Origin: Whitmania pigra
Taxonomy: Eukaryota; Annelida; Clitellata; Hirudinida; Haemopidae
Direction: 5' to 3'
Assembly: GCA_021613335.1 (NCBI GenBank)
Contig: JAJTWR010000254.1
Span: forward strand, 1,716,001 to 1,780,000
DNA: 64,000 bases
In this document: positions 1,855-60,000 of the stretch, in pieces
Numbering within the stretch: position 1 is the first letter of the stretch
Layout of the letters: each line of letters opens with the position of its first letter
Notes under the pieces: model-generated
Databases searched by the model: none
What the model was told of the DNA's origin: nothing
The model's input: the letters and a program-made list of their open reading frames with translations, nothing else
Made by a program: the position numbers and the translations under genes

Positions 1855-3652
1855 TGATTAATTCTATTCTTGTGATAAATGTTTTTGTTGTCAGTGCTAA
1901 TGCAGGTTTGCTCATCTCTCTGACTGCAATCCAAAAAGTTTGCAATAAATATTTTGTTGTTGTTAATGCCCAATGATTCAATTGATTTTTTTTCTAGAAA
2001 CAACTTAGTAACCTGACATCTGAAGACTTTGAATTTTATGTTACTCACATATTTAAAAAGTTGTTATGCAAACGACCCCAAACAATGATTCTCTCTTAAA
2101 GATTTCCTATTGGAAGGATTAATTAAAATGATTAGTCTACAACTTTATTTGCAACTTGACACTTGTCAAACTAATTTTACCAGTAACTGAATAATATTAA
2201 ACAACTCTACTTCCTATCCAGGATAAAGTTCCTCACACTAATTAGGTGTCTCTGGACACGAGTTTTCAATGACCTTTTACAATCGTCGAGAAGGTTAGAT
2301 AAGCGTTTAAAACAAGATATACATAATATTAACTGTATGATAACGTAAATTACAAATAATTTTTGCAGAAATCTATCTCAAGAGTCATGTGGAACAATAT
2401 GATCTGGTCATCTCCAAGCTCTCTAAATTAACTGCGATTTTCATGAGATTTAACAATGACAATAAATAGTTTACATGTTGCCATCACAATTGTATTCGTC
2501 CCTATACACAATAAAAGTTGATAAATTTTCTAGAGATTATTTGTAGAGTTCGAGTTGCGTGGTTTTTCCGGACCGTGTTTATTTTGAAAGTTTGGTTTAT
2601 TAGAAAGTAGCGATGATTCTGGGTGTGCAATAATGTTATAAATATTTAGACTTACGTATTTCTACACAAATAAATTATTATTTACATAAATTTAAATACT
2701 GAAGCTTAATGTTTTATTTCTGTACTTTTATTTATGTTTTTTCAAATAATTTAAAAAACAAAGTCTTCTGTTGATTGAGATATGAACATTTTTAAAAAGC
2801 ATTTGTAACGTAGTTTCCAAATATTATAATTTGAATCTTCGCATTAAGAAATAAATGTGAGTGTCTGCTAACTTCAGCCACGTTAGAGACTAGGCTTTTA
2901 CCATTATATAAGTGTCTGCTGGCGGAAGACAAGTCTTCGGACAGCTAGGCAAGCGAAAGAAATTGTCGAATTTTATAAAAATGTCACATTGTCATCGATT
3001 AGCGGATGGTTGTAACTAGTGGCTAAAACATCGTTTTAAGTATTTTTATATAAAAGTATTTTTTATCAGGAATATATTTTTTACATGTACATAAATTAAT
3101 TTGCTGATAAAGTTATCAAGAGGGAGAAATGGTGACATCTTTACTCGTAAAATGCTAAAAAAAAGATAAATTATTTAAACTTGTATGTAATAAAATATAT
3201 TAAATGGTATCTAAAACTAATTTAGCCAATTTCAAAATGGTCGATGAAATGAATGTTATCGATGTTTTGTAAACTAGCTGCGTTGAATATCACTCTCTCG
3301 TGAGTAACTGTTTTTGTGAATTATAAATCTTTTGCGCTGTTTTTAAGTAACAAGTATAAGCTACTATTACTTTTCTTTGGATTTGTGAGTATAGTGAGTT
3401 ATATTAACAGATTAATAGATTCTTCATAATCTTGAATAAATATTTTGCATAAACGGACTCCATGCGGCAAATGTTTACATAATTATCGATGAAATATACT
3501 TTTAAATAAAATTGTTAACGTAAGGAAATTTAAACTTATTGATTTTGATCACTTTAGATTTTTTGCCTAATATCAACTTATTTCAAGAGAATTATTAAAA
3601 TTTACATTTTCTGAAAAATTTTGATTAAACATTATAGATAACATCTCAGGTC
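1855..3652. other. Intergenic, AT-rich; 5' flank of XRN2
   Basis: No coding segment, RNA gene or clear repeat recognised. The last bases before the XRN2 start, ACATCTCAG at 3642-3650, look like a splice acceptor, so XRN2 may have an upstream non-coding exon in this interval. The promoter could not be placed. Confidence 0.5.
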
Positions 3653-6454
3653 ATGGGAGTTCCAGCATTTTTCCGTTGGTTGAGCAGAAAGTATCCATCC
3701 ATAGTGGTCCACTGTAGAGAAGAGAAGGCTAAAGTCATAGATGGAATAAAGATTCCTGTAGACATAACACAAGCAAATCCTAATGATTTTGAGTTTGATA
3801 ACTTGTACTTAGACATGAATGGAATCATTCATCCTTGTTGTCATCCAGAAAACAAACCAGCCCCCAACAATGAAGAAGAAATGATGGAAGCCATTTTTGA
3901 GTACATCGACAGATTAGTTGCTATCGTTCGACCTAGAAAAGTGTTGTACATGGCCATCGACGGTGTGGCACCGAGAGCCAAAATGAACCAACAGAGGTCA
4001 AGGAGGTTCAGAGCCTCAAAGGATTCTCGGGAAAGTAGGGAAGAAATTGCAAGGATTAAAGAAGAATTGAGGACAAGAGGGATTGAAATTCCACCCGACA
4101 GGCCCGAAAAGGAACATTTTGACAGCAACTGCATCACTCCTGGAACTGAATTTATGTCTCGCCTGGCCGAATGCCTCAGGTATTACATCCACGTAAAGAT
4201 GAACAGTGATCCTGGATGGTCTCAGATTATGGTCATACTTTCTGATGCCAATGTGCCCGGAGAGGGGGAGCACAAGATTATGGATTACATAAGGCGTCAA
4301 AGAGCTCAACAAGATCACGATCCGAACACGAGGCATTGTCTCTGCGGTGCCGATGCCGATCTTATAATGTTAGGTCTGGCAACGCACGAGCCAAACTTTA
4401 CAATCATCAGAGAGGAATTCAAGCCTCACCAAGAAAGGTCATGTGAAGTATGTGGTCAGACAGGTCATAGAATGACAGAATGCACCGGTGCAGCAAAAGA
4501 AAAGCAGGGGGAATACGACGAGAAAGTGATTTCCGCAGGATCCGAGCAGGATTTTATATTTTTGCGTCTCAATGTTCTCAGAGAATATCTCTACAAGGAA
4601 TTGGCCATGGTAAATTTGCCATTCAAAGAAGATTTTGAAAGAGCCATCGATGACTGGGTGTTGATGTGTTTCTTTGTGGGAAATGATTTTCTTCCACATC
4701 TTCCCTCATTGGAGATAAGAGAAGGTGCCATAGACAGATTAATTGGACTGTACAAGAAGGTAGTTTACAAGACTAAAGGATATTTGACAGACAGTGGTCA
4801 TGTACATTTGGATCGAGTACAACTGATGTTGGCTGACCTTGGGGAAATGGAAGATGAAATTTTTAAAAAGCGGAGAGAAACTGAAGAAAATTTCAAAAGA
4901 AGAAATGAAGAAAGGAACAAGAGACAGAGAAGATCTTATGATGCCCCTGCATGGATTCCCACTGGAGCTTTTGCTCCTGTGCCTCTAGGACAAAATGTTG
5001 GACCAGACACCTTAAGTAGTGATGCCATTAAGTCCGAAAGACAGCAGAACTTTCAAGCTGCATCTGCGCAAACTAATCAAAGCAATCAAAGAGCAGCTTC
5101 TGCATTGAGATTGTCATTGGGTTCTCTCCCAAAGGATAATCAAGAAACATCCAGCAACAAGAGAAAATTAAATGAAAATGCAGATGAACCAGTTGATGAG
5201 GTAAGATTGTGGGAAGATGGGTGGAAAGACAGATACTACATGAACAAGTTTGGAGTTGGAGTTGAAGATTGTGGTTTCAGGTCCAAAGTAGCTAATGAAT
5301 ACATATTGGGAATTTGTTGGGTGCTTAGTTATTATTACCAGGGTTGTGCCTCTTGGAACTGGTATTTCCCGTACCATTATGCACCTTTTGCATCAGATTT
5401 TATGGACATAGGAAGTCTTGATATTACTTTCCCAATGGATACTAAGCCATTTAAGCCTCTGGAACAGCTCATGAGTGTTTTTCCAGCAGCAAGCAAGAAG
5501 TTCCTACCTTCATCTTGGCAGAAATTAATGTTTCAAGCTGATTCTAAAATCATTGATTTTTATCCTACTGATTTTAAGATAGATTTGAACGGCAAGAAAT
5601 ATTCATGGCAAGGTGTTGCACTGCTACCTTTTGTTGATGAGAATCGTCTGTTGGATACTCTCCAAACTGTTTATTTGAATTTGACTGAAGATGAATATAG
5701 AAGAAATTCTCTTGGAAATGATAGACTTTTTGTCCACAAAAATCACAAGTCATTTAGTTCTCTTGAAGCCTTATATGAAAATGGTCACAATGAAGCAAGG
5801 GTTCATTTGAATGTGTCACTGACAGGTGGAGTTGCTGGTCTCACATGGTGTGATGAGCATGTTGTCTTGTTGGGAGATGTTGTAAAGTCCCCCTTGTTGC
5901 AGATGAGTGATTTCATGTCCAATCAGACAATCTGTGTACAGTTCTTAGATCCACAGTATGAACCAGGCTTTAAATTTCCAGCTAAAATGTTGCCTAATGC
6001 AAAAATTCCAGCACCCGTCTTGAATTCGAGGAATATTGAAGACCAAAGGCCGGGATTTTCTAACAGTGGATATTCAGGGACTCATGATGCTTCATCAGCA
6101 AGAAGAATGTTGAGAGGAAGTTTAAATTCTCAGGGATGCATGCCTTACAATGCTCCACATTGGAATGCCCATGGAGTCCATCCTGATCAATCTTTTCGAG
6201 GAGAAGGATCAAGAAATTTTGCTCAAACGTCATACAATGAATTCTCACGATCAAATAATCGTCCTGCGAATGTGCCAGGCTTTCATCATCAGCACGCTCC
6301 AAGAGGAATGCCAAATCATCAAATGAGATATAACCAAAACTCTGGGCAACAAGGTTTTCATTACCAAAGACAACCCTTCCAACATCAGAGATACAGAAAT
6401 GAAGCACCTCACCATAATCGCCCCCGATTCCACCCCTATTCCAGGCATCAATAA
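3653..6454 (+). CDS. XRN2: 5'-3' exoribonuclease 2 (XRN2/Rat1), intronless
   Basis: An uninterrupted 933-codon frame starting MGVPAFFRWLSRKYPS, the diagnostic N-terminus of XRN enzymes. The N-terminal nuclease region contains the acidic motifs NLYLDMNGIIHPC, SDANVPGEGEHKIMDY and CGADADLIMLGL that bind the catalytic metal ions. A CCHC zinc knuckle (CEVCGQTGHRMTEC, about residues 263-276) is the feature of nuclear XRN2 that cytoplasmic XRN1 lacks. The conserved second block follows (DDWVLMCFFVGNDFLPHLP), then a Ser/Gln/Asn-rich linker, the C-terminal XRN domain, and a tail rich in Arg, His, Gln and Asn. Length matches the family (human about 950). XRN2 degrades uncapped nuclear RNA, drives torpedo termination of Pol II and trims rRNA precursors. 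Not a single intron is present over 2.8 kb, unlike the other genes here. No poly(A) tract or flanking duplication marks it as a retrocopy. Confidence 0.97.
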   Translation: MGVPAFFRWLSRKYPSIVVHCREEKAKVIDGIKIPVDITQANPNDFEFDNLYLDMNGIIHPCCHPENKPAPNNEEEMMEAIFEYIDRLVAIVRPRKVLYMAIDGVAPRAKMNQQRSRRFRASKDSRESREEIARIKEELRTRGIEIPPDRPEKEHFDSNCITPGTEFMSRLAECLRYYIHVKMNSDPGWSQIMVILSDANVPGEGEHKIMDYIRRQRAQQDHDPNTRHCLCGADADLIMLGLATHEPNFTIIREEFKPHQERSCEVCGQTGHRMTECTGAAKEKQGEYDEKVISAGSEQDFIFLRLNVLREYLYKELAMVNLPFKEDFERAIDDWVLMCFFVGNDFLPHLPSLEIREGAIDRLIGLYKKVVYKTKGYLTDSGHVHLDRVQLMLADLGEMEDEIFKKRRETEENFKRRNEERNKRQRRSYDAPAWIPTGAFAPVPLGQNVGPDTLSSDAIKSERQQNFQAASAQTNQSNQRAASALRLSLGSLPKDNQETSSNKRKLNENADEPVDEVRLWEDGWKDRYYMNKFGVGVEDCGFRSKVANEYILGICWVLSYYYQGCASWNWYFPYHYAPFASDFMDIGSLDITFPMDTKPFKPLEQLMSVFPAASKKFLPSSWQKLMFQADSKIIDFYPTDFKIDLNGKKYSWQGVALLPFVDENRLLDTLQTVYLNLTEDEYRRNSLGNDRLFVHKNHKSFSSLEALYENGHNEARVHLNVSLTGGVAGLTWCDEHVVLLGDVVKSPLLQMSDFMSNQTICVQFLDPQYEPGFKFPAKMLPNAKIPAPVLNSRNIEDQRPGFSNSGYSGTHDASSARRMLRGSLNSQGCMPYNAPHWNAHGVHPDQSFRGEGSRNFAQTSYNEFSRSNNRPANVPGFHHQHAPRGMPNHQMRYNQNSGQQGFHYQRQPFQHQRYRNEAPHHNRPRFHPYSRHQ

Positions 6455-8514: not shown

Positions 8515-10826
8515 TTGCATATAGTAAGCAGCAATCGTTGCTATTTTGGTGTGTCGGGATGCATTTGTGGAAGAAAGGATGTAGGTGCCGCGACACTGCA
8601 ATTGCATTCCGAACTATTAAAAGTATTTTACCTTCCAGCCTTTCTTTCTTTGGGGAGAATTTGTCACAGACGATGCTTTTCGTCGGGAGATGCAGCCAGA
8701 GAAGATGTTCGAGGGTAATTATTTAGCTTATCAAGTAACCGGGCAGACATTTTTTATTGTTTTCATTTCTAAAGCACCAAGTGTCGCACTGGAATTCTAC
8801 TATTTGGCCTCGGGGATCCCATTCAAGATGATGAAATTAAAAATTATTTTATCCGCGCGTCACTTGACAGAAACATTATCTCTTACCCTTTTCAAGAGTT
8901 AGTATTAATTCGCAGCATAAGTTATGAAACATGTTTAGTAATCCTTGTGTTTTGAGATACAAATAGGATACCATATATAATACATATAATCATCAAATTT
9001 CCTTTGAACTAGATATTTGGGACCAGTCTCAGCAAGGAGAAAATTTTCGAGGTTTCTCTCTCATCACAAAACATCTTCACCAAGATACAGCATCAGCAAA
9101 CTAGTTAAAAGTCAAAGACTTGATTATATCTTAGATATTTTGAGTCCTAGGACAGGTGAATACCTCCTTAAAACATGTAAAAAAAAAAGCTAATTTGATC
9201 CTTTCATAGTCTGGATGTAATTCTTTTGAGATCTTGTCATTGTTTCCTTTCGTTAAATCTTTATAAGGTGTTATTATTATTACTTTATTTACAGCACCTC
9301 ACATGTGCTTTGTTGGCTTCCAGTACACAGATCCAGTCATCGAAAAGACACTGAGAGAAATGGAAATGTATGTTTTGTGCAATGCAAAAACGTTTTGATT
9401 TTATTTCAAAATCAATATTCATCAATTTCAGTAAGTAAGCTTGCTTTATTTTAAGTTATGATGTAGAGAGGGCCGTTGCAGTTCCACTACTACCTCACTA
9501 TAGCTGTTCAACTACAGGAAGCCTCTTAAGTACAATCTCTACATATAATAAAGAGAAAAGAGAGCCATCAAAGATGGTCTGGTCTGTGGTTGACAGATGG
9601 TCCTCAGACCCAGCTTTTATCAATGTACATCAATACCCAATTAAAAGTTAATTAAAATGTACTAAAATTTATTAATTTTGGTAGTCCTTTGTTGAAAGTG
9701 TCAAGGACGGACTCAACAAATTTCCAGAAGATGTAGTGGATAAAACATTGATCATATTTTCGGTTTTGCCTACTCCATTAATGGTAAATTAGGCCATTAC
9801 ACGTGTTGAAGATCTCCTGATAAATTGAAGAGTTTGTTTTAGAATGTTTATAAAGGTGATTCATATCATCACCAAGTAGCTGCAAGTGTACATTGCATTA
9901 TGGAAAAGCTAGGAAATTGCAACCCTTTTACCATTTCATGGCATTCACTAGTGAGTTATACTTAAGAAACAGTGTTTATTAATTTATTAATGTGATTAAA
10001 AATCTTTCAAATAGGTTGGTACTTTTCCATGGTTGGGTCCTGAAACCAAATTTGTTCTTCAATCTCTTGAATCAAGCCATTACAAAGGAGCTCTTGTAGT
10101 CCCAATTTCCTTTATTTCAGACAGTGTATTAGCTGATGTTGAACATTTTTCAAGTTTGCCAACACATGTCAGTAGGTCCTGCAAGAGAATGACTAGGAAA
10201 AAATCACTTTAAATGCTAAATTTGTTGACGTCAGATGACGAAGATGGTCCAGCTAGCAAGAGCCCCAATCACCATGCCAAATTTTGCCAAGGTTGTGCAA
10301 ACTCAACTATGTTTTATCGAACATCATGAGACTATTGATTGCGCAAGTTAGTTTGAGGGGTTGCGTGAGGTGTTTAGCAGCAACGGTCAATTGTATAAAC
10401 AAATTTGCAAGAAATGGCTTCAGTTCTATGCATATAATATTAATTAATCTTGAGTTCAAAGAGCCCAAGTTTTGAATTTACATATCCATTTTGAAGGGCT
10501 TGGCACAACTGATTGCCACACATTTACAGAGTGGATCTTCATGCAGCAAGAATCTGTGCATGAAGTGTATTAGTTGTTCAAATGAGAGCTGTGCTGAGAT
10601 GAGGCGATACTTCAGGACATCACAGGAGATTCTTGACATTGCCAAAAAAGAATCATCCATGATTGGTTGGTATTTTGAAGATCATTTGAGATTGGCTTTT
10701 CTACTAGCTCTCTCCATAAACCTTAGAATGATAATTCATTTTTTCAAGGATGGTCTCACCATTGAGTTTTGCAAGATGGGCACATTGGTACCTGAGACCA
10801 CCACCTCAAACACCAAGGGCAAATGA
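8515..10826 (+). pseudogene. FECH-like: Ferrochelatase homologue lacking catalytic residues
   Basis: Exon-like blocks reproduce ferrochelatase in order: about 8620-8714 (Arg-rich presequence ending CHRRCFSSGD), 8775-8901 (GILLFGLGDP), about 9013-9155 (ILDILSPRT), 9295-9367 (APHMCFVGFQYTDP), 9456-9624 (HYSCSTTGSLL), 9685-9783, 9843-9950 (KGDSYHHQVAASV), 10015-10212 (VGTFPWLGPET), and 10498-10826 with KCISCSNESC. Most junctions have correct GT-AG sites and matching phases. Ferrochelatase inserts iron into protoporphyrin in mitochondria. The Cys in YSCSTTG and the three in CxxCxxxxC, which ligate the 2Fe-2S cluster in animals, are all kept. The catalytic His (human H263, FSAHSLP) is Leu here (FSVLPTPLM), and the SDHIE motif (H341, E343) is SDSVL. 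There is no in-frame ATG in the first block, the 8901/9013 phases do not close, and the segment between the last two blocks is not recognisable. Either a pseudogene or a non-catalytic paralogue. Confidence 0.78.
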
Positions 10827-10995: not shown

Positions 10996-13900
10996 TTAAT
11001 AACCGATTCCTGGTAGAATATGGAAGGCATCACTGATCTCTTTATCAACTTCTGTAGTGACTAGTTTCACACTGGGAAATGCATAAGCCACAGCATAAAT
11101 ACCTGAAAAGGGAAACAAGCTAAATATTTTTGTGGTCACTGGAGATGTTTGATCCAACGTTTCAGAATTATTGTCACGTAAGATTATTTAAGATGTGAAA
11201 GACAGACCTGGAAGTGCCATAATAAGTGAGGCAAGAAGGATATTTTCTTCCTTGACATCGTGATCAAGCAGGACTCTGATGGCCATCATTGCTGCAGCAC
11301 CTGTGGCCATTGTTGCATCCATCAAAATGATATGGCTGTCCTTTATGTTTCGAGGAAGTCGTAGATAATGGAGCTACGTGGTTGTAATAAGTTTTGAATT
11401 TGTCAGTGCATTCATGGTCGTTGAGCATCTCACCTCAGGCTCCCCTGTTTCATTGTTTGTTTGAATTAATATTTTGCCAATCGACACCTCGTTGCAAACA
11501 TCGCAGAGGGCAGGCTCCATGGTTTCACCTGCTCTCAGAATGCTAACCCCACAAATCTGATAAACAAATTTAATTTTTCAGGATATCACTTGGCAGCTAA
11601 ATTTTGTCTATTTATTTAGTTTTAATTAAGTTTATGGTAGCTGAAACTTTCTGAGCTCGCTTATTATGCATTAACATATAAAAAAAAGTAAAATATGGTA
11701 GATTAGCTCCTCACATTTGAAGTATTTATCTTCATACCATGGTATTGAGTGTTTCGAGGAGTGCTTACAATAACATCCTAAAGAATAAAGGATACTCAAT
11801 TTTAAAGTTCAGATATTTGAATATATTTATATTCACCCACCTTGAATGGCAAAAGTGATAAAGCAAATTCAATGAGAAGCCTCATGAGTCGCTTTGAATA
11901 GAAGATGAACTCGTCCCTGCACGTCTCTTTGTTCCTTATAAAGGTGTGGAGGCCGATGACTTGATTAGATCTCTCTAGGACGTGGAGAGAAGGTGGTAAA
12001 CAGTCTGTTTGATGGACCGTCTGCCTCAGAGTGGATCGGAACTGAAAGCCCCTCTGTTGAAAAATGTTTATGCTTTCACCTCTTGTCGAGTAGTACTTCA
12101 CACAAATTATTTCTTAGGATGACTGAATTTTTAAAAGCTTCCATAAAAATTTAGCACTTAAGTTGTATTAAGAGAAATATTTTAGAGTTTAAAGTGCTTC
12201 CATAGATGGGAGGAGCACGTTAAAGAAAAGTTACTCATCATTTCAATAGCCATGTCATGTCTTACTTCCTCCTGCATTTATACTGCAATCCAATGTTGTC
12301 ACTCACCTCGTGCAACCTTTGGTGAACCAGATTGACAATAAGATTGACACCAATCTCATTTTCCCCACCTGAAAAAAATGTAGATATAAACAAATAGTGG
12401 GCAGAATTTTTCACATTAGTTATGCGATGGTCTTTCATCAAATCAATAAATGAATATGCAGAAGTTCTATAATGAAAAGTACCTCGTGGTACAATGATGT
12501 CAGCAACATTCTTGGTTGTATCAATGTAGGTGTCATATGCTGGTTTGACAAATCTCATGTATTGTTTGAGGACACCTTTTACATCTCTCCCTCTTTCCAG
12601 AATGTCCCGTCTCAGTCTTCTGGCCAGCCTCACATCAGAGTCAGTATCAACGAAGACCTTACAATCCATATGCTGAAATTTCAAGTGTGTTAATAAGTCA
12701 AGTGGATTCAGATATGCCCAGTGTCTCTAATGAGTCTAGCCAAAATTTCTTGAAATGAATGAACCTATCATTTTCTAGAAGAGATAATTTGTTTTTATTG
12801 ATATTTTGATTTAGTGCCTACTTGTTTTGCTGACATATATGGGTTCAATTAGCAAAGACCCAATTAGAATACCAACAGTATATAAAGCTTATGGTTGTGC
12901 AAGTTGGCCAAATGGGTTTCGTGCCTGCATAAAGGGGTAATGGCAGCAGTCATAATGTGTCGTGTTCGAAACCCAGCCTGCACTGACTCAAGTACATACA
13001 AAGGAGGTAGCAATCAAGGTCAACCAATTCACTCAAAGTAGATGAAAATTAATCAAAATAAACAATTACCATTAGAAGCTCTTTTTGGAAGGCAAATATA
13101 CCTTCAAAAATCACGACATTGGCTCCATAAATTGTTTTCTAAAAAAAAATGAGAATGGAGCTACTTTTGAGAGCAGTTTAGAAGCAAGCAAAAATTAAAA
13201 AAACTTTTTTCTTGTCGACTTGATGAGTTGTAAAGTTGTAGATGGGGATCTCTGCATTTTTTCCTTCTCTCAACCTCTTTAAAGTAGTAGCAATGAGTTC
13301 CATATTAAAAGCATCAGGAACATCAAAGTTGTAGTTGCACTCATTTGCAAGTTCTAGTTGCTCCGGGCTTAAAACCTGTTACACATAAATTTCCTCTAAT
13401 AAGCTTTACATGACTTGATACAAATTAATAAGTAATAGAAAATATATTGCAAAAAAAATACAAACAAAATATCATCACAATCAGACTGAAAGTCTTACTT
13501 AATGTGATAAAAAGTTTTATCTTAATGGTCAAAAATGCCAGACACAGTATTTCAATTTATAAATGAGTGTGGTTTGCAATTTAAAACATAAGCTCAAACA
13601 CCTTGTAGAAAGAGTCCATGCAGAGCAGACTGACCCAAGGAACATCCAAAGCCTCGATAATTTTTTTAGCTACCGAAGTTTTTCCTGAAGCACTTCCGCC
13701 AGAAATACCTAGAAATTTAAGCATATTAGTGCTACTAGTGAAAATGAAGTTTATTTAAGCCCCAAAATAGCATCATTCCAAAACCTTAATTGTTTGTTCA
13801 AATGAGTCCCATTAACCACGACTAATCATAATATTCAAAAGTGTTTATGGAAGCGAATGAAGGTTGGCCGAATTGGTTATGTTCCTCCATGCAGCTATAA

Positions 13901-22954: not shown

Positions 22955-23494
22955 TTAAGACTTCTTCTGGCTTCTCATATGCCAGATCCAGAATGAAGCC
23001 GCTTCAGCGGCCTCAGACATCCTTGTCATAGCCTTTGTTCTCTCTCGGCTTGACAATCCGATCTTAGTGAGGAAAGCGTAAGTCGACTTGCCGACCACGC
23101 CCCTTACGCCAATCTCGATAGGGTAGAGGTCTGTGCGGTATCCTCTCGCTTCCAAGTCCATCGTTAGATCTGCATACTTGTCTGCTTTGAGCGCATTGCT
23201 GTATTGCAGCCTGTCCTCCCACGGAACCGTCAGCTCCACCAGAATGATGGCATCCGTCGACGGCGATACGAGCACTAGATCCGGCCTCTTGCCACTTTCT
23301 ATCAGCACCTGGGGGTAGTGCCTTATCCCTTCTAAGTCGGCTGCGATGGTCCAGTCGTTTGCCTCTGCAAGAATGTCTCGCCTTGGGGTTTGACATCTCT
23401 TTTTGCAGAGGTGTGCGAAGCCCTCGCGCAAGAAGTAAATCTTTCGCTGATTTGCGAGTTTGCTTTGGATACTGCTGCTTTTGCGGCTTCGCAC
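22955..23494 (-). CDS. R2/HERO restriction-like endonuclease domain
   Basis: A 179-codon frame overlapping the end of the RT frame. It carries KRPDLVLVS followed by ILVELTVPWEDR, the PD-(D/E)xK-type core of restriction-like endonucleases in R2-group elements. This enzyme nicks the target DNA for target-primed reverse transcription. The frame shift relative to the RT shows that the copy is inactive as it stands. Confidence 0.88.
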   Translation of the reverse strand: MRSRKSSSIQSKLANQRKIYFLREGFAHLCKKRCQTPRRDILAEANDWTIAADLEGIRHYPQVLIESGKRPDLVLVSPSTDAIILVELTVPWEDRLQYSNALKADKYADLTMDLEARGYRTDLYPIEIGVRGVVGKSTYAFLTKIGLSSRERTKAMTRMSEAAEAASFWIWHMRSQKKS

Positions 23495-25473
23495 ACTTCT
23501 CGAAGGACCTGGTTATGTCGCCATGTGTACCGACCGTTGGCAAGGGCATACGTGCAATTGCTGAGCACGTGGTGCAGTGTCTCAGTACCGCCACAGAGCC
23601 GGCATTCGGTGTCTTCCACCATACCCCACTTCTGCAAATTGTCCCTGGAGGGCAACTGGTCGTACACTGACCTTATCGCGTAGGCAAGTCGGAGCGGGGA
23701 CATTTTCCACATGTCGCTCCAGGTAAGGGATCGTTGCATCACGTCTTCCCACGTTGTCCACTTACCCTGCTGTGACTGCTGAATTGCCCTCGTGACTCGG
23801 TCCTGTTCCACTTTTCGCCTCCTTTCCTGGATAATCATGGCGGCTCTGACTGATGAGCTCGCCTGGGACCATTTTGGCAGGTGGTTCCATCCTACTGCAT
23901 GACGGTCCGTCTGGGTAGGACCTCTCACTTCCTCGAACATCAGCTCGGCAACTGATTCGTCGATCTCATTCTGCGCTCGGAATTTCCTTCCAGATCTAAG
24001 CAGTGGCTTGACTTCACGGATCCTGCTATCCGCGGAGTTGTTGAGCATCCACTGAGTTCTTATTTTGGAGAGTTTGTACTGTTCCACGATGGACCTTAGT
24101 GGTAGTCGCAGGCTCGTGCTCCTACTGTAGAGGGCTACCGATGACAGCGCTGGAGGTAGGCCTAGCCATTTTCTGGTGTATCGGTTAACTTTCCTCTCTA
24201 GCTTCTCGACCACTGACAAGCCAATCTCATAGATGGTTAACGGCCAGAGAAGTTTTGGAAGGAGCACGAACTGGAGCAACCACACTTTGAACCGCCCTTG
24301 CAGCGGTGCCGCCTCAATCGCCTGCAGTCCCCTAATGGTTTGCTGGAGAATGGCGTCCTGCATGCTCTTGTCGGTGAGAGACTTGTCAAAAACCCTTCCA
24401 AGGTTTTTCACTGGTTCTTCGGATACTGTAGGGATTCGCTGCTCCGCCACATCGAAGGACACGTCCTCGCGAATTTTCCCCCTAACTAGGGCAAGACATC
24501 TGGATTTCGCAGGTTTGAAAGCCATTCGACACCACTCTAGAAGGTTGTTAAACTTGTCCAGGGTATTTTGGACAACCTTCTTCCTGTTCATGATCAGGGT
24601 GGTGTCGTCCATAAATGCCTTTATTGGAGGCATGTACACCCCTTTACCAATGTGCACCTCTGGAGTACGAGACCCGGCTGCCTTCAGTAGGATCTGCATC
24701 GCCAGTACGAATAAGGAAGGAGAAATTGTGCACCCCATTGCTATACCAACCTCCAGAGGCACCCACCTTGTAGTGTACGTCTTGGTGGAAAACCGCATCA
24801 TGAACCCGTTAAAGTATTCCTGCAGGATGTGAATAACGGGCTGAGGCACATGATGGGCTTCCAATGTTTTCCATAGGAGCTGGTGTGGTACCGACCCGTA
24901 TGCATTCGCTAGGTCCAACCACACGACGTACAAACTCAGCCGGTTCCTCTTGGCTCTCTGAATAGCTTCCCAGATCATCGAGGTATGCTCGATACAACCG
25001 GGTATACCTGGAATGCCTCCCTTTTGGACTGAACTGTCCACGTACTGATTAGACATCACGAACTCCGTGAGCCTCGATGCCATGGTAGAGAAAAATGTTT
25101 TCCCCTCTTCGTTCAACAGCGACAATGGTCTGAATTGACTCAGACCATTGGAGTCTTTCTCCTTTGGATTGTAGACGCCCTCTGCCTTTTTCCACTCATC
25201 ATCGACCGTGACCCCCGACCACGCTCTCTGAATGAGGGAATGCAGCAAATATAGTGTCTTGGGACATCTTTTGTACAGGAGATAAGGAACTCCGTTGGGC
25301 CCTGGCGCTGATCGGTTTCTCGCTTTGCTCACAACTCCTCTCACCTCCTCGAACGAAGGAGCCGCCAAGCAAAAGGGACTGGTCGGCAGAGGCACCGCTG
25401 GGATATCGGCCCTTTCCTGTAGAGACTCATGGCGGAGTGCGTCACTATACGTTTTGAGTAAGTGTTCTTCCAA
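23332..25473 (-). CDS. R2/HERO reverse transcriptase with C-terminal CCHC finger
   Basis: A 713-codon frame. RT landmarks appear in order: RSAPGPNGVPYLLYK, FRPLSLLNEEGKTF, VVWLDLANAYGSVPH, GIAMGCTISPSLFVLAM and the catalytic AFMDDTT (F-x-D-D). The thumb region follows, then a CCHC finger (CRLCGGTETLHHVLSNC), which in this group precedes the endonuclease. The frame breaks after the finger, and the endonuclease continues in another frame. The upstream start is arbitrary because the element is already frameshifted. Confidence 0.92.
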   Translation of the reverse strand: MEEHLLKTYSDALRHESLQERADIPAVPLPTSPFCLAAPSFEEVRGVVSKARNRSAPGPNGVPYLLYKRCPKTLYLLHSLIQRAWSGVTVDDEWKKAEGVYNPKEKDSNGLSQFRPLSLLNEEGKTFFSTMASRLTEFVMSNQYVDSSVQKGGIPGIPGCIEHTSMIWEAIQRAKRNRLSLYVVWLDLANAYGSVPHQLLWKTLEAHHVPQPVIHILQEYFNGFMMRFSTKTYTTRWVPLEVGIAMGCTISPSLFVLAMQILLKAAGSRTPEVHIGKGVYMPPIKAFMDDTTLIMNRKKVVQNTLDKFNNLLEWCRMAFKPAKSRCLALVRGKIREDVSFDVAEQRIPTVSEEPVKNLGRVFDKSLTDKSMQDAILQQTIRGLQAIEAAPLQGRFKVWLLQFVLLPKLLWPLTIYEIGLSVVEKLERKVNRYTRKWLGLPPALSSVALYSRSTSLRLPLRSIVEQYKLSKIRTQWMLNNSADSRIREVKPLLRSGRKFRAQNEIDESVAELMFEEVRGPTQTDRHAVGWNHLPKWSQASSSVRAAMIIQERRRKVEQDRVTRAIQQSQQGKWTTWEDVMQRSLTWSDMWKMSPLRLAYAIRSVYDQLPSRDNLQKWGMVEDTECRLCGGTETLHHVLSNCTYALANGRYTWRHNQVLREVCEAAKAAVSKANSQISERFTSCARASHTSAKRDVKPQGETFLQRQTTGPSQPT

Positions 25474-25546
25474 CTTGTCTTGCTCTACAGAAAGTTCTCC
25501 CGATTTCGGAGGGTCTAGTAGCGATCTTCCGTATCTGTACGGATCG

Positions 25547-26146
25547 CTAAAGAAGCTTCTCAGCTCTCCTCCTCTCGTACTTCCTCTGTCTCCCTCTTTC
25601 AGCGCGGCGCAAGTCCCTCACTCGTCTCTTCACGTCCTCCCATAGGACGGAGAGTCCTTCTCTCTCGTCTTCTTTGGCCACTTTCCACCGACGGCGAAGC
25701 GCTTTCTTTTCGCCTTTGAGGCGTCCGAGTTCACGCTGTCGCCTGGAGTCCTTCATTTCCTGGGGTCGTTTGATAGGCACGACCCCAAATCTCTCGATAC
25801 ACTTGTTATAGATGAAGTCACTGAAGGATTTCACTGATCCATCCTTCAGGCTTTTCTTAAGTCCTTGCTTAAGTTCCTCATCCAGTCCTGACCATCCTTT
25901 CTTGTCGTTTCCTCGAGGGAATCTTATCCTGCTTTTTGGGGGGTCTTGTCCTTGGCGAGAGACTCGGACACACTCGGAGCTGTGGTGTGACTCCTGTCCG
26001 GTGTTGTCCGGCGTTTTACCTATCTGCAACTTTGCGATAGTACGCTGTCTCAATGCCTCACACCCGCAATTTGATTTGGTTTGGTGGACTTTGAGTCCCC
26101 TCTCTGTTGCGAAAACTCTTCCACACGTACATCTTCTAACTGGCAC
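25547..26146 (-). CDS. R2/HERO N-terminal zinc-finger segment
   Basis: A 199-codon frame beginning MPVRRCTCGRVFATERGLKV with the finger CTCGRVF-GLKVHQ-C near its start, then a highly basic region (RLKGEKKALRRRWK). This resembles the DNA-binding N-terminus of R2-like elements. It is in a different frame from the reverse transcriptase that follows, so at least one frameshift or stop separates them. Confidence 0.8.
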   Translation of the reverse strand: MPVRRCTCGRVFATERGLKVHQTKSNCGCEALRQRTIAKLQIGKTPDNTGQESHHSSECVRVSRQGQDPPKSRIRFPRGNDKKGWSGLDEELKQGLKKSLKDGSVKSFSDFIYNKCIERFGVVPIKRPQEMKDSRRQRELGRLKGEKKALRRRWKVAKEDEREGLSVLWEDVKRRVRDLRRAERGRQRKYERRRAEKLL

Positions 26147-40364: not shown

Positions 40365-41940
40365 GGAACCCACTTACCTCGACCTCGTCAACCTTATTAA
40401 GTCGACGCTTTTGCAATAGAACCGCCAAATTTCGTCTTTGTCTTATCACTTTCTCATCGTTATGTCGATACTTTTGTGTCGCAAAAACTTAATATCTCGA
40501 GCACAAAAGAGGGTCAAATTCGACACTTTACATCAGCTACCTTCGACCCCTTGACTTTGAAGTGAACCGCCAAATTCTCACGATGTTGTAGCATTTGCTC
40601 CTCGGTTATGTTGATTCTTTTATTTCGCTGAACCCAATTTACTCTTGTTTATTTTGTCTGAGGAGTAACACGCTCTTCTAGCTATTCTGTTTATTTTTTT
40701 CGTTCTAAAAATATCTGGGAGTTTTAAAAGAAAATTAGATAATCAGGCAATAGAGACAAAGTATGAAATCATAATGCAGCTACAAAAAGCAACAAAACCA
40801 GCAGACCTTAGTCGTCATCATGGCATACCAGCAAAAACCATTTCAGGAAGGATGGAAAAAGAAAGCGTGATAAAGCAAATGTCCAAATTGTAGCAAATGC
40901 AGAGAAGTCTGTCTTTGATTCAGCAAGAAAAAATTTTTGAATGGCTGAGCACAAAGAGATCGACGATGCAGTGCTTCAATGGCTCATAAATTCGCGAGCA
41001 ACAAAACTTCCCGTCAATGGTCAGAAAGTACCAAGCAGAAAAAAGGAAGGTGGAACTAATCGTGGACAACCGTAGAGCTCATCCTGATGTTCCTGGTCTC
41101 AAGGCCATTAAGATTTTTTACCTCCCACTTAATACAACAAGTAAGCTCCAACAAATGGACCAAGGGATAATCAAGTGCTAGAGGAAAATGTTGATGCGCC
41201 AATACCTGTTCCATGATGAAAATAAGGCACATTACACCCCTTCCCTTTTAAATGCAATGAATTTCTTGAGATCAGATTGGAATGACGTGAAAAGGAAAAA
41301 ATCTCGAACTTCTGGAGGCACTGCATCATTCAGGCACATTGCCGTGCATCCGTAGAATTGGGGAAAATCAAGCCTTGCAGGTGCTATCTCGGAAGAGGAG
41401 GCACATGAGTTAGTCATCAATGTAGGAGAATTCCGAAATTACACAGACGTAGACAAAGACGTCGTCACTGATGGCGTGATCACCGATGAAGACATTGTAT
41501 CAAGAATACAGTCAGCACAGGCAAGCTTATCTGCATGATGTAATGACAAAGAAGATGAAGATTTGGAACCAATTCCCTCTGCCGGTGAGGCGATAGAAAT
41601 GATTCAGAAAATGCGATGGTATGGTTCCTTTGTATGAGATGAAATTGTTTTGAAATAATATTGAAGCACTAGCTTTTCAGAGTGTTAAACGGAAAAAGCA
41701 ACAAAGCTTCAGATTTTGTAAAGGAACTATATTAACCACGTTAAGTCTTCAATTTTCAAGGCTGTGTCAGAACAAAAAGACTCGCGAATTATGACACTGT
41801 AAATTAAAAAAAAAAGGACTATAACATTCACATTTTTTGGGTATTTCGGGAGCGATCTTTGTTTTTGAAATGTAGGAAAAAATAATTAGAAACGTTTGTT
41901 TCGTAAATCGACAGCGGTTCGCTGCCTATTGGTAAATCTC
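40365..41940 (+). mobile_element. pogo/Tigger DNA transposon, deleted and mutated
   Basis: Readable + strand pieces: a CENP-B/pogo N-terminal helix-turn-helix (KLDNQAIETKYEIIMQLQ, HHGIPAKTISGRMEKES) near 40725-40870, part of the second DNA-binding domain (DDAVLQWLINSRATKLPVNG) near 40960, then a jump to the DDE core (VDNRRAHPDVPGLKAIKIFY, LPLNTTSKLQQMDQGIIK) near 41055-41175 and a tail through about 41530. Stop codons interrupt it and the first part of the catalytic domain is missing. The left edge GTGGAACCCACTTACC and right edge GGTAAATCTCTACTG look like diverged terminal inverted repeats; exact ends are not certain. Confidence 0.82.
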
Positions 41941-41989
41941 TACTGTTGGTTTATACATGTCTTTTGTTGTTAGCAAACATGCATGTACA

Positions 41990-42200
41990 TATTGCTGTTA
42001 CCAACATCAAGGATGAGGCACTACCCCCAGGTGCTTATAGAAAGTGGCAAGAGGTCGGATTTGATGCTCGTATCCCCGTTGAAGGATGCCAACATTCTGG
42101 TGGAGCTGACAGGCTACAATACAGCAACGCGCTCAAAGCGGTTAAATATTCTGTCGATGGACCTGGATGCAGGTCCTGGAGAGACAGACCGATACCGGAC
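41990..42200 (+). pseudogene. R2/HERO endonuclease fragment
   Basis: Two overlapping + strand frames match the endonuclease at 22955-23494: RHYPQVLIESGKRSDLMLVS in one, RLQYSNALKAVKY in the next. The second catalytic motif survives in part (ANILVELTG). This is a third trace of that retrotransposon in the window, now joined to gypsy-type sequence. Confidence 0.82.
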
Positions 42201-42379
42201 AGACTGTGTTGTGGAATTACCAAGACGACGCCAAGACAGAGATCACATCTCGTTCGAGACAGAGACCATCTCCTGTCCACGAAGTTCAATCATTCTTCGT
42301 GTCAATGTGCAAGCTTGGATATGTTCAACAAACATCGTGGTGGAAAGAACTCCTCGTGGGTAAAACCAAGCTTAGGGCA

Positions 42380-44515
42380 AATTAGACACAGAGGCAGAGG
42401 CAGAGACATTTTATCACAGAATGTTTTCAGACACATGAAAGATCGTCCACCTCTTCGCACTACAAAAGCTGTACTCACGTCATTTAGTAACGACAAGGTA
42501 AACCCAGCAGGATTGGTCACCGTTCTCAACCAACATCGTGGAAGAAGTATTTTGACCGATTTTTTCGTGGTCAACCGCCAAGTACCTACAATCTTTGGCC
42601 TGCCAAGTTGTCTGGAGCTGAACCTGATAAGCAGGACACAGATGGCATCAAGGAAGACTTTAGAGGAATATCAAGATGTCTTCCAAGGATTGGGATGTTA
42701 TCCCAAAGAGCACCATGTTGTTGTTGATGCTTCCATCACACCCAAGATTCATCCTCCAAGACGTTTTCCATTGTCTCTCCAGCCAAAACTCAAGCAAAAG
42801 TTGGATCAGATGATTGAAGCAGGAGTCTTGGTCAAGCTTGATGAACCGACGGAATGGGTGAGCAGCTTGTTGCTGATTGAAAAGAAGGATGGATCTATCA
42901 GATTGTGTCTCGATCCAAGAGACCTTAATACCGCCATAAAAAAGGAACACTATGCTATTCCCACATGTGAGGATGTTATAGCACAACTCCATGGCATGAC
43001 TGTGTTCACTATCATTGATATGAAGGATGATTTTCATCAAATAAAGCTGGATGAAGAGAGTTCCAGGTTGTGTACGTTTAACAACCCATTTGGAAGATAT
43101 TCGTTTACTCGTCTCCCATTTGGCATAACTTCAGCACCCGAAGTTTTTTAGAAGAGAAACACTGATACATTCGGTGACATACCGAATGTCCGCATAGTCT
43201 TTGACGACCTTATTATCGCAGGGAGAAATGAGGCTTAGCACGATGAAACTTTGAGGAAAGTGTTGGAACGAGCACGACAGCACAACGTAAAATTCAATAA
43301 GTCGAAACTTCAGTACAAGGTACATCAAGTCCGATGCCTAGGTCACTTATTGTCGGAAAGGGGAGTCAGTACACATTCCAACAAAATCCAGGCAATAGAG
43401 AAGTTAAAAGCACAAACCAACAAGAAAGAACTTCATAGATTCTTAGGCATGGTGACTTACCTGTTAAAGTTCATTCCCAGTTTTTCATAAATGACAGATC
43501 CACTGAGAATGCTGATGAAAGAAGGCATGGCGTGGACCTGGGCAGCTCAACACAGAAAAGCATTTGAAGCATTGAAAGACAGCATATTAAGAGCACCCAC
43601 ATTGAGATTTTTTGATCCTAACAAGCAGATCACAATCCAGACTGACGCCTCTTCATCAGGATTAGGGTCTTGTCTTCTTCAAGAAGGACAACCGATAGCA
43701 TAGGCTTCAAGAGCTCTAACAAATGCAGAAACACACTATGCTCAAATTGAGAAGGATCTATTAGCAATAGTCTTTGCTTGTGAAAAGTTTTACCAATGAT
43801 GACACTGGTAATTTTATGGACAACTGACCATCATCCAGAGGGATCATCGCCCACTGGAAGCAATTTTTCGCAAGCCCATAGCAGCAAGTACTCCACGACT
43901 TCAGATAATGTTGCTCAGACTACTTAAGTTCAACCTCAAAGTGGTCTACACACCAGACAAGCTCATGCTTGTTGCAGACGCCTTGTCTAGAGCTTACCTT
44001 ACAATTCCCCAGACACCCTCAGAGGTTGAAGTTGAAGAAGACATTAATGTTACAATACATTCAGTGCTTCACAATATCCCAGTAAGTCTACTCATGCTAG
44101 ACGTCTTTAAGGAAGCAACCAGCGGTGATCCAGAGCTAACAAAGCTACGTCAAGCCTTGTTATGCTATGATGCTGAAGTAAAAAACCAACTTGTCAAACA
44201 ACTGCAGGGTTACCAGAATCTTCTTGCAGAAATCTACGAAGCTGAATATCTTATTCTACCTTGACCGGATAATAGTTCCTTCGAAACTCAGGCCTGATAT
44301 GCTTAGAAGGAATCACGAAGGTCATCTAGGGATTGCGGAATGCAAGGCAATGGCAAGGTCTGCACTATTTTGGCCAAATATGTCGCGAGACATTGAGCAA
44401 TTAGTGAAAAGGTGCAGCATCTGTAATAAATATAGGAACGAGCAACCTAAAGATCCTTTGATCCCACACCCCATTCCAGATCGACCTTGGGAAAAAGTTG
44501 GAGTTTAATGTTGTT
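42380..44515 (+). pseudogene. Ty3/gypsy LTR retrotransposon pol relic
   Basis: Protease-RT linker (FGLPSCLELNLISR), reverse transcriptase (SLLLIEKKDGSIRLCLDPRD, RLPFGITSAPEVF, VFDDLIIAG), RNase H (TIQTDASSSGLGSCLLQEG) and the HHCC zinc domain of integrase (HEGHLG..CSICNKY) are readable on the + strand. One frame serves from 41946 to about 44264 with in-frame stops, at 43149, near 43238 and 43488, 43700 and about 43796 among others, then a +1 shift at about 44264. The catalytic core of integrase and both LTRs are missing; the relic ends where a microsatellite begins. Not functional. Confidence 0.9.
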
Positions 44516-54000: not shown

Positions 54001-57000
54001 TTATTCATTTTCTTGTACTAATTGAAGACTCATTCTTCTCAGGTAATCTTGGTGCAATAAGCCAACAGCCATTCTTCAACATGCACCTGATGACATCCAA
54101 GCAAAATCTTGTCACTGATAATCAGTTTTTATTCCCAACTTCACAGCTTGTTCAGAAGTCACCTGCAGTTGAAGAGAGCAAGTGTTCAATGCAACAAAAC
54201 AATCAGACCAATGCACTTTTTTCTGCATTGCTTGCTTCGAACGTACTCACCACCTCCCCTGGTCCTACCAGCACTTCACCGGAGCAATTGAGGAATATTT
54301 TCAAAAATCTTGAGCTTCTCACCGTGCCATCTGAAGAGGGAAGCAAATCGCCACTCAGAATTTGCACCAATGCCTGGCAGCAAAAGGAAGCTTTCCAGGA
54401 TGATCAGATATCGATTTTGGCGCAGTCTCTGAATTTGGACGCGTCCGAACTAATTAAAAATCAGTCCGGTCATAACCCGTCGTCCTTGGACAGGTCGTCA
54501 GATTCCCCGACTACGACTGCCACCTCAGTAAATCCTCATTCCACCACCTTGATCACCGATTCATCAAAAGATCAAGTCCTTCAAAAAGTCGAGAAATGCC
54601 TAGGTGATTGTCAGATATCTTCTGATGAGCTTCTACCTAATCTTCGATATTATCAGGTGGTTCAGATGGCTCAATCGGCATTGCCGTCCTCAAAGAATCA
54701 CCAGATGGACGGCCCGTTTTCTTCTAAAATTAACTCCGGTCAGGATGATGTTGAAGGGTCAGACTCGGAATCTAACGAGAATAACCTTTCATCCCTCAAA
54801 AATCAGGAAGAGATGTGCTCGCCAAAATCACCCGATATAGTTGCACTAAATGAATCTGACTTATCTCCGAAAGAGTTCCTCGATGTGGTATCTAAGTTGA
54901 AAAAGCTTGAGTTTGATACTTATCCAAAGGCTGCCTGGCAAGAGAAGGAGGATTCGACCAGTGACTGCGCATTCTTTGAGTCACTGACTCGATCCTGCAT
55001 AATTGCCGATAAAGGATCATCTAAAGGGACCCAGGAGGACCTGCAGAATTCCATGGCATCTCTAACCAATGCTGATGATATTGATCTCTCCACCATAGTT
55101 CTTCTAACAGAGCTGCAGCAACAGCAGAATACCATGGACCTCTGTGATAACAAAATTGGCAACAAGAATGCTTTCAATGACAACTCAAATTTTTCTATCC
55201 AGTGGAGCACCACTGGGCAGCAATTGGCTTATCCTCAATCTCAACAGAATTCTCTGACCTTTGACCAAGCAACAAGTCAGCTGTGGCAGCAACAATTTGA
55301 ACAAATGTTGCAGTGGCAGCAACAACAACAACTAGTCACCCAGCAGTTTTTCCAGCAGCAACATTTAAATCAGCAGCACTTGCAGAAACCACAGCCTTCG
55401 ATGCATTCAGACAATCCTCAGCAGGTCAAGTGGAATCTAGATTCTTCTGTGTCTCTGAATGCAGAAGTCAATAAAGTCAGTGAATCTATCAATTTGAGTG
55501 GCAAGTACTCAAGCCTTCCCAAAAATAGTGCCACAGCAGGTGACTACCTACAAGTTCACGAAAAAGCCCAGAAATTGGAATTCAAATTTGAAAGTCCCCC
55601 TCAGACGCACAAAGTTCCCTCTTCGGTGATCGGGTCGTCGGGCGAAAATAGCTCTCAGCCTCAGTTGAAGACCACGACCGGTCGTGTTTTTGTTAGAGGT
55701 TGGTCGAATTCGTTCTCACGGTGCTTCATAAATCAATTTTGAACATTATCAGTTAAGTTATTATTTAAAATATATAGGTCACAGGAAGTTACCAACTCTT
55801 CAGAAACAGCAGCAACTTGCTGCTGCTGTTGCCTGTTCATCTAATTTTACCGGGGATCCGTGTCTCCACCAATTACAACACGCGCAAATACAACCCCTCG
55901 CACAATTGCCGGGCTCCTCCCACCTAGGTCTCCAGCCCCATTCATTGCTGTTGGGCAACACATCATCGGTTTCGGGAGACCTCTCGAACGTGGCATCCTC
56001 CGTGACAAGTTGCAATGCATGGACGCAAATGCCAATCAACAATCACAACACCTCTATGTATGTTCAGTTCCACCAACAGCAGCAACAACTAAAGAACAAT
56101 AAAATTGTCAACAAGCAAACCTTACAGATGCCACAGGTTGTTGAATAATCAAAATTTCCTTTATAATTCGATAATTTTTTATTTTGTTACTTATTTGTTA
56201 TTATTATTAAGTCATTTGTTAGTTATTATTTTTTTTATTATTATTAAGTTATTTATTACTTATTATGTGTTATTTGCCAATTTTTTATTTTGAACTTGAA
56301 CAACTCTTAAGAAATGACGAAAAAGTCTAAAACTTTGTTTTACTGTTGCATATACAAGTTGCATATATATATTTTTGAGGTTTGCTTGGCAATATACTGA
56401 AATATACATTATAACTCTATGGTTTTAGCAACAAGGCCAGACAGCAAGTTCTTGTTCTGATTTGAAGCATCTGGGTCAGTCTACCAACACTTGCTCACAT
56501 GTTCTGCAGCAACAGCACATGTTCCTGCCACAACATTACCAGCCACCGTTAGATCTGCAGCCGTTGAAGCAGCAACATGCTTACTTGTCACAGCAAGAAA
56601 GATCCCAAGCATATCAGCAATTCCAGCTGCAACAGTTGTTACAACAACAAAAAGTTTGTGATGCAACTGCTTCCCTAAGCTCTAGTGGTCGGCCCGTCGG
56701 ATCATCGAGCGGTGGCGTTGCAACCAATTCTCTCGCATCTCAGCACCTACCCTCTCAAGAGTTGTTTCACAAGCAGGCTCAACACTTTCCCCAATTAGTA
56801 CAAAACCAACACCAGCAGCAACAATTTGTTCCCATAAATTCCATGAATCAGAAACATATTTTGCTGGATTCGTGCGGAACAAATTCAGTGGGGCAACAGT
56901 CTACAAAACTGTTTAATAACGGCAGTAACAGTCTCATCCAATCTCAGCTGTTTCAACTGATGTCTCAACAACATCAACAGCAGCAGCAATTGTTCCTGCA

Positions 57001-60000
57001 GCAACATCTGAACCTGCATCATCCTCATCATATACTCAGTGGGAGTTCGAACACCAATAACAACAAATCATCATTTCTTCTTCAATCAGGCATTGATTCA
57101 ATGAATGTCTCCTCTCCCCTCTCTCCTTCCACGTCGACCTCTTTTGATACTGGACAACTGGCTGCCAGATGCCCCATTGAGGTCGATGCACAAACCGAGG
57201 GAAACCACGACACGGCTCTAACACTGGCCTGCGCCGGAGGTTATGCAGAGCTTGTAGAGTTGCTCCTGCAGTGCAATGCCAACATAGAACACAGGGACAA
57301 AAAAGGTTTCTCTCCTCTCATCTTGGCTGCTACAGGTGGCCATGTTGGAGTTGTTGAAATTCTGTTGGACCACAACGTCGACATAGAAGCCCAATCCGAA
57401 AGAACAAAAGACACCGCCCTTTCTCTTGCATGTTCGGGAGGGAAGTATGAAGTCGTAGAATTATTGTTAACCAGAGGAGCAAACAAGGAACATCGTAACG
57501 TGTCCGATTACACTCCTCTGAGTTTGGCTGCTTCGGGAGGATACGACACCATCATCAACTTGCTGCTCGATCACGGGGCAGAGATAAACTCGAGGACGGG
57601 CAGCAAATTGGGAATTTCGCCTCTCATGCTGGCGGCAATGAACGGCCACGTCAGCACTGTCAAACTCCTTCTCGATAAGGGAAGTGACATAAATGCCCAG
57701 ATCGAAACAAATCGTAATACGGCTCTTACTTTAGCCTGTTTTCAGGTTTGTTTGGAAGTTTGTTATTTTAATGATTTTATTTAAATTAGGAATAATTATT
57801 TTAGGGAAGGCACGAAGTTGTGAGCGTTCTTCTAGAAAGGAAAGCCAATATCGAACATCGAGCCAAAACGGGGCTGACGCCTCTAATGGAGGCGGCTTCC
57901 GGTGGCTACGTGGAGGTAGGAAAGGTGCTCCTGGACAAGGGGGCCGACGTAAACGCCGCTCCAGTTCCTTCGTCGAGAGACACCGCTCTGACGATTGCAG
58001 CCGATAAAGGACATCACAAATTCGTCGAACTGTTACTTTCTAGAAAAGCTCTGGTTGATGTTAAAAACAAGAAGGGTAATTCGCCTCTGTGGCTAGCTTG
58101 CAACGGTGGCCATTTGGAGGTTGTTCAGCATCTTGTGCATGCAAAAGCTGATGTGGATAGCCAGGACAACAGGAAGGTATCTTGTCTCATGGTTGCTTTT
58201 AGGAAGGGACACATAAAAGTAGTGAAATGGCTAGTCAAACATGTGGTTCAATTTCCATCTCAACAAGATTGTTCGAGGTGTCTGTCGACCATCGCCGACA
58301 AGGAATTACTAAAGAAATGTCAGGTTTGCATGGAGATCATCGACGGGGCCAGAGAGAATCAGGCAGCCGAGGCCAATAGGAACGCAGACAACCTGCTTTT
58401 GGAACTCGACAGGGAAAAGAGTTTAGAAGAAAGTCGTAAAGCAGCGGCTGCAAGAAAAAGAGAGAAAAAGAAACAGAAGAAAAAGAAAAGACAGGCAGCT
58501 GAAGACACCAGAGAGGAAAGCAATGAAGCCAGCGATAGCCAGCAACCCGAAGAGATTTTATCTAAAACGGACAAAGATGTCGAAGATGCTTACGAGACCA
58601 TTGTGTCGTTTGGAAATGCCAGCTCTGAAGAGGTTATTGAGAATCCTGCTAAAAAAGTCAAGCAGAATAAAAAATCTGGTAAGGATAAAAAAGCATCTTG
58701 CAGAGTTGAGCAGGTGCCCATCAAAAACTGTTTGAGGCCAGTTGAAGAAGCATCCAAAAGTTTGATCACTGAAAGCAAACTTTGTGAAGTTGAGGTGCAA
58801 CAGCAGCTTCAGTCGACAACATCCCAGTCAATCTCATGTACTGCACTCAGTATAGTAAAAAATAATATGAATTCTCAAAATAATAAGAAGGATCTTTCAA
58901 AATTCGTCCTTTCCAGCTATTCATCAGGCATTGGTGATCTTGATGATTTTGGAATGCTTCCCACTGATATTAAGAACACAGCCACATCTGCAATGTCTTT
59001 GCACAAAGAAAAATCATCTGCAAAAGAAACTCAGAGGTGTAAAATGGTTGTTGCATCTTCAGCTGCTGTAAAGACCCACAAAGGGTCTACGCTTTCCAGT
59101 CCAAAAAAGATTGCTCGCAAGGATGAAGGATGGAAAGAAGTGACTCGAAAGTGTAAAAGGATAACGGTGCCCGGAAAAGCCATTAGCAGGATAATCGGAA
59201 GAGGCGGATGCAACATCAATGCCATAAGGGAAGAATCGGGTGCACACATAGATCTCGATAAAGTAAAAAATTCTGCCGACGGTGTGGTGACCATAAAAGG
59301 ATCGGTCGAGGCCACGAAGCTTGCTTATGACTTGATCGAGGCTCTCATCAGAGAAACTGACAAAGACATTGAACAACTCATTCCTTTGTTCAAGAATAAG
59401 GCGTCTACTTCGAACTCGTGCATCTCGCTAACTAAAAGTAATGCTTCATCAAAATTAAATTCCTCTAATAGCACCATTTCGTTCTCTGGCATTACAAACC
59501 CAGGCAAGCAGAATAACATTTTAACATCAGTGGGAAGTTTGGTCTCCAATGCAGGGATCACCTCTGTGTGGAACAGATCTTCCAAAACCTCGACAGCTTC
59601 GAAATCCGAACCTATTGCAAGCTTCACTATTGGAGCGTGGAGTCCGTCTGTTCACGATTCAGCAAAGCTTCCTTCATCTTCTTGTACTGCAATTTCGAGC
59701 CAGGCAGTCATCCAAAATGTTTCTACAAGTGATTCTTTTGCTGGTTCTATAACAAATGCATTCACCTCATTAAAAATTACAGCAGGTTTGTTATCTTCAA
59801 ATGAATTTCCTTCTAGCCAAGTAAATAGTACAACTACTTATAAAGTCACTTCCTCATTGTGGGACAATCAAATGGTTAAGCCCGAGGCATCGTCTGTGAC
59901 TGTTGCCATGCCGATCATGTCCGGAGGTAATTCTGGATCAAAACATTCTACATCAGCGGAGAGCGTCCAAATGATACCTCAGTACTCTCCATTCAAAACA

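Follow-up and report, generated by a model that had tools for sequence, protein, structure and literature searches.

The window (the whole 64,000-nucleotide stretch of DNA analysed here) carries on its plus strand an animal-type ferrochelatase gene, 8559–10826, that has exchanged its catalytic residues and kept all four cysteines of the iron–sulfur cluster. Iron-insertion catalysis has, as judged from the predicted protein, almost certainly been lost. We lean towards seeing in this gene the animal's own mitochondrial-type ferrochelatase turned non-catalytic and lean, about equally gently, towards its retention as a protein.

The gene was modelled by finding homologous blocks and then seeking the GT-AG joins between them. 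Eight exons counted from the ATG at 8559 join in frame without a stop and a ninth is joined less securely, giving a stop-free model of 449 residues when 10168–10496 is removed as a GT-AG intron (Table 1). An earlier reading of this DNA, made from the sequence only, had placed ferrochelatase exon blocks on the plus strand, which the homology matches bear out, and had reported a missing start as well as one unclosable junction. Neither of these two holds, as the ATG is in frame with exon 2 via an AAG/TGT acceptor (8781/8782) and the junction of exons 2 and 3 closes with an intron at 8921–9032; with an in-frame ATG present, a pseudogene for want of a start was rejected. The donor of exon 8 lies at 10167/10168 or 10171/10172, and exon 9 ends either with the stop at 10824–10826 or with an intron at 10666–10748 and a stop soon after. 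In a control allowing GT/AG pairs within 30 nt, shuffled introns were also joinable, at rates that ran from 0.30 to 1.00 depending on the junction and gave a product of 0.033 over the eight junctions, so that closability by itself is modest evidence for a gene. The exons were moreover chosen by homology and openness, which biases the procedure towards stop-free models. The lead encoded by exon 1 is likely to be a mitochondrial targeting sequence, judging from its charged residues.

Table 1. Features of the ferrochelatase relative, in window positions; substitutions are given as human residue to window residue.
Feature	Position	Strand	Content
Exon 1	8559–8714	+	ATG start; lead of 52 residues, 10 of them basic and 2 acidic (counted on the translation)
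Exon 2	8782–8920	+	RTGILLFGLGDP...; N75 to G, M76 to L
Exon 3	9033–9155	+	RRKFSRF...ILSPRT; R115 to K, Y123 to H, S130 kept
Exon 4	9295–9367	+	APHMCFVGFQYTDP; R164 to Q
Exon 5	9456–9624	+	LLPHYSCSTTGS + DRW; Y191 to L, C196 kept; PF00762 match in the own genome
Exon 6	9685–9783	+	FSVLPTPLM; catalytic H263 to L
Exon 7	9843–9950	+	YKGDSYHHQV; Y276 kept
Exon 8	10015–10167	+	VGTFPWLGP...ISFISDSVL; W310, F337 and D340 kept; H341 to S, E343 to L
Probable intron	10168–10496	+	CAT/GTCAGT ... TTGAAG/GGC, phase 0; takes in the segment left unrecognised by the earlier reading
Out-of-frame relic	10460–10492	+	RAQVLNLHIHF, ferrochelatase residues 367–377; frame differs from that of the following exon
Exon 9	10497–10826	+	GLAQLIATHLQSG...CMKCISCSNESC; C403, C406 and C411 kept as CX2CX4C

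Among solved structures searched by phmmer, the best relatives are human ferrochelatase chains (208.8 bits, 1.2e-60), within a top set of mitochondrial ferrochelatase chains that includes 2hrc and 2qd1, both from human (PMC9133952). Two further mitochondrial chains scored about 150 bits and bacterial chains 53–76 bits. Ferrochelatase PF00762 was the sole Pfam match (167.3 bits, cut-off 27, profile positions 1–270 of 317), and 116 of 330 aligned residues (35 %) are identical to human ferrochelatase. The comparison set comprised human and 27 proteins, namely 26 of 28 relatives (the short P0025 and P0026 were dropped) and the bacterial P0029; eight of those 28 relatives carry an organism name, none of them that of an animal. 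In the resulting tree the window gene falls among eukaryotic, mitochondrial-type relatives and apart from P0029, a placement that is unsure because its branch of 5.24 changes per column sits in an open fork.

Several other features share the window. Exons of a uracil phosphoribosyltransferase and of the uridine kinase family, perhaps one gene, lie on the minus strand at 11188–12726, convergent with the ferrochelatase relative. An uninterrupted 935-residue frame at 3647–6454 encodes an XRN2-type 5'–3' exonuclease with 5fir, presumably a C. elegans protein, as closest PDB entry (872 bits). Reverse transcriptase frames (RVT_1) at 23332–25617 on the minus and 41907–43151 on the plus strand presumably represent two transposable elements, and reading frames with ankyrin repeats and KH domains at 56429–60753 are what we take to be MASK-like.

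Ferrochelatase is described with a lower network of H263, H341 and E343 and an upper one of N75, M76, R164 and Y191, while R115, Y123 and S130 contact the propionates and F337 is also named (PMC9133952). All residues of both hydrogen-bond networks are altered in the window gene, the change of M76 to leucine being common among the relatives; R115 and Y123 are replaced as well, and S130 and F337 are kept. The alignment thereby confirms the conversions of FSAHSLP to FSVLPTPLM and of SDHIE to SDSVL noticed earlier, and the reported loss of three catalytic residues turns out to extend to N75, M76, R115, Y123, R164 and Y191. Among the relatives, H263 is found in 27 of 27 (and in human), H341 in 26 of 27 and E343 in 27 of 27, the human chain used bearing Q at the last position. 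Since H263 is gone and every H263 variant studied to date is inactive according to PMC9133952, iron insertion would be excluded. Y276 and W310, invariant across all ferrochelatases known according to PMC3596385, are both kept. The same is true of YSCSTTG and CxxCxxxxC, as had been noted before: C196, C403, C406 and C411 are all cysteine at human spacing, with CX2CX4C at the C terminus, and the C-terminal triad occurs in 24 of the 27 relatives. The function of the ferrochelatase [2Fe-2S] cluster is described as undefined (PMC8529089).

To what extent the losses concentrate on the active site depends on the counting. Out of 58 near-invariant columns, those in which at least 27 of the 28 sequences share one residue, the window gene keeps 28. 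With gap columns omitted, 2 of 9 are kept in the named catalytic and porphyrin network against 26 of 39 elsewhere (Fisher p = 0.024); if the 10 gap columns are counted as lost, the comparison is 2/9 against 26/49 (p = 0.15), and with three neighbours of H263 moved into the network it becomes 2/12 against 26/36 (p = 0.0015). As p thus ranges from 0.0015 to 0.15, the contrast depends on the choice of columns and argues weakly to modestly for a putative directed loss of catalysis.

A search with PF00762 across the assembly (178 Mb, 381 contigs) returned three matches, two of them exons of the window gene and the third a 396-residue open frame on the 127 kb contig C50. The best match of that frame is a Pedobacter sequence at 74 % identity, and the genus name Pedobacter stands on 77 of 80 loci, these being 80 of the 120 confirmed for it; the frame was therefore taken as bacterial. 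With a Pedobacter-like sequence as the sole full-length match, an intact second animal copy was rejected, and the search found no other non-bacterial ferrochelatase-type gene. A canonical animal copy should have shown, since even the divergent window gene was caught in two exons at 25–38 bits. The choice between a pseudogene and a retained non-catalytic form had been rightly posed, but the term paralogue is unsupported. Bacterial-looking contigs in the assembly include C50, C115, C49, C360 (2.9 Mb), C47, C121 and C38, and a search for mitochondrial COX1 gave four matches from five candidates; each match lies in a long frame that stays open under the bacterial code and has, by eye, bacterial-looking neighbours. 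For 18S rRNA, a conserved oligo matched once in the assembly; the partial copy (L110:5464–6087, minus strand) covers model positions 4–605 of 1831, and the surrounding 10 kb held no further rRNA match.

Other steps of heme synthesis could be traced in the same assembly. An HMBS profile gave four matches, of which the two full-length open frames (C121 and C38) were taken as bacterial from their neighbours, the other two being animal-type exons on C184 (about 2077679–2078517); the surroundings of these exons carry HSLKD, GTSS.RR and RGNLNTRL, which we take to be important HMBS motifs. UROD was matched six times, by one full-length bacterial frame on C38 and by five exons on C235. Strung together, with some read by eye, the exons of this animal-type UROD (C235:872001–882000, minus strand) reach 374 bits to UROD chains that are presumably human. 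The conserved GHG near the C terminus of the C235 gene reads GSG. CPOX gave two matches from three candidates, uninterrupted frames on C56 and C119 that share a neighbour, presumably ribosomal protein L11 by its looks, and were for this reason taken as bacterial; an animal-type CPOX was not found in one profile search of the assembly. The compared stretches of C161, C184 and C235 have no 25-mers in common, which says little on common origin. Taking the three as one host, its heme pathway looks split, with early enzymes seen, CPOX not found and ferrochelatase dead.

The reading frame itself bears on whether the gene is retained. At 35 % identity to human, the homologous exons contain no in-frame stop. 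When a ferrochelatase frame of 278 codons was left to drift neutrally to 37 % identity in a simulation, indels being left out of the count, stops averaged 13.1, 7.7 and 4.8 from starts at 100 %, 55 % and 45 % identity, with 0, 1 and 2 of 300 runs free of stops. The absence of stops where 4.8 to 13.1 are expected indicates that the frame was under selection through most of the divergence, and at such a distance it makes a retained pseudoenzyme likelier than old neutral decay. That selection lies in the past; a present-day hold does not follow from the stop count. By codon usage the reading frame is not distinguishable from the two alternative frames (−0.017 versus −0.040 and −0.037 bits per codon).

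The segment 10213–10490, left unrecognised in the sequence-only reading and counted there towards a pseudogene together with the start and the junction, is where this argument survives: the segment is removable within the probable intron, and what remains is the out-of-frame relic. The relic shares 5 of 11 residues with human RAESLNGNPLF, a level attained by 5 of 3000 shuffles near the 3' end and by 154 of 3000 when the whole segment is considered. We take it, on this resemblance, as a probable true remnant of ferrochelatase, which may reflect a lesion, a splice shift or an assembly error. It lies directly upstream of the last exon, and most of residues 345–377 are missing from the stop-free model, which should harm the core fold and weighs heavily against a well-folded product.

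These observations leave room for a recent pseudogene, long constrained and possibly already non-catalytic, that lost its frame only lately at the C-terminal junction. We regard this as the less probable but a serious reading. Besides the relic and the omitted core segment, it gains from two other window frames that run for 2.8 and 2.9 kb without a break, so that an assembly error, though possible, is not the first choice, and from the lack of any animal-type CPOX found, by which substrate supply may be gone. It has to accommodate, however, eight open exons upstream of the relic and a conserved cysteine tail downstream, as well as an alternative acceptor that bypasses the relic. Very improbable by comparison is an old neutral pseudogene decaying since pathway loss, which would fit the lost catalytic residues and the long branch but neither the missing stops nor the retention of all four cysteines. 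A catalytic ferrochelatase whose true H263 and H341/E343 exons were misread or lie elsewhere is about as improbable: the C-terminal exon structure is uncertain enough to allow for it, but FSVLPTPLM and SDSV sit inside exons whose flanks align gaplessly to human, and three further exons have lost Y191, R164 and N75.

Ferrochelatase relatives lacking the active site are already known from nematodes, so what is worth following here is the kept cluster motif together with the split pathway. Nematode ferrochelatase-like proteins (FeCL) are reported to lack the active site (PMC5633385), and a C. elegans 'pseudoferrochelatase' without H263 has been described (PMC9133952). FeCL were found in all species covered by PMC5633385, one in each and two in Brugia pahangi (perhaps an artefact), and their presence in every species surveyed suggests retention. 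The window gene resembles them as an animal-type ferrochelatase relative without the active site; on whether FeCL keep the Fe-S cysteines, the accessible parts of the literature yielded no statement. Nematodes are all said to lack the heme pathway (PMC10377359), and single genes of it are present in some (PMC3596385). Unlike a typical nematode, the genome of the window gene has TTAGGG arrays along with the HMBS and UROD exons, and SL1 was absent from the assembly both as an exact match and with up to 2 mismatches allowed. The assembly is also free of an exact four-unit array of TTAGGC, the telomere repeat of most nematodes (PMC9071541). A TTAGG-type pattern gave at least 156 + 432 matches against at least 13 + 20 for the reversed pattern, and among the matches listed are TTAGGG runs near the start of contig C10 (552–7184), possibly a telomere repeat. 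From these repeat and gene contents, a typical chromadorean nematode seems an unlikely host; candidates are a basal nematode, a hairworm or a member of another phylum.

Like human and other metazoan ferrochelatases, the window gene keeps the scaffold, C196, C403, C406 and C411 as well as W310, Y276, F337 and S130, but it differs in the replacement of H263, H341, E343, N75, R164 and Y191 and in residues 345–377, which are mostly absent or out of frame. Ticks, which retain FECH with CPOX and PPOX after losing the earlier steps (PMC4821805), likewise keep a ferrochelatase gene with an incomplete pathway; whereas theirs are the last three enzymes, here the early HMBS and UROD were seen and an animal-type CPOX was not found. 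A survey set aside 14 ferrochelatases without the catalytic histidine, of which 11 accompanied a functional copy (PMC8529089). Unlike those 11, the window gene has no functional animal copy that we found beside it. Literature on hairworm heme genes and tardigrade ferrochelatase yielded nothing usable.

If the gene is retained as a non-catalytic protein, the product would be made and then imported into mitochondria via its basic N-terminal lead, where the kept cysteines may bind a [2Fe-2S] cluster in a protein that cannot insert iron. It could then act as an Fe-S sensor, or else provide a holder or scaffold for a tetrapyrrole, whether imported heme or porphyrin. Tetrapyrrole holding is favoured among these because the inactive human variant E343K co-purifies with bound protoporphyrin (PMC9133952), the propionate contact S130 is kept and R115 is now lysine. 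Drawn by analogy, such a role is speculative and on the whole doubtful.

The broadest reading, to which we give only tentative and rather low credence, is that of an animal outside Nematoda, perhaps of a sister lineage such as the hairworms, that kept HMBS and UROD and lost CPOX, and whose only ferrochelatase is now an Fe-S-bearing, non-catalytic mitochondrial protein. If true, it would represent an intermediate state towards animal heme auxotrophy, and the ferrochelatase scaffold would have a job independent of iron insertion. Were the gene instead a recent pseudogene, it would document ordinary pathway decay. The split pathway would bear on the order in which heme synthesis is lost in animals, and a real protein that has lost catalysis and kept the cluster motif would make the function of the cluster separable from iron insertion, and thereby testable.
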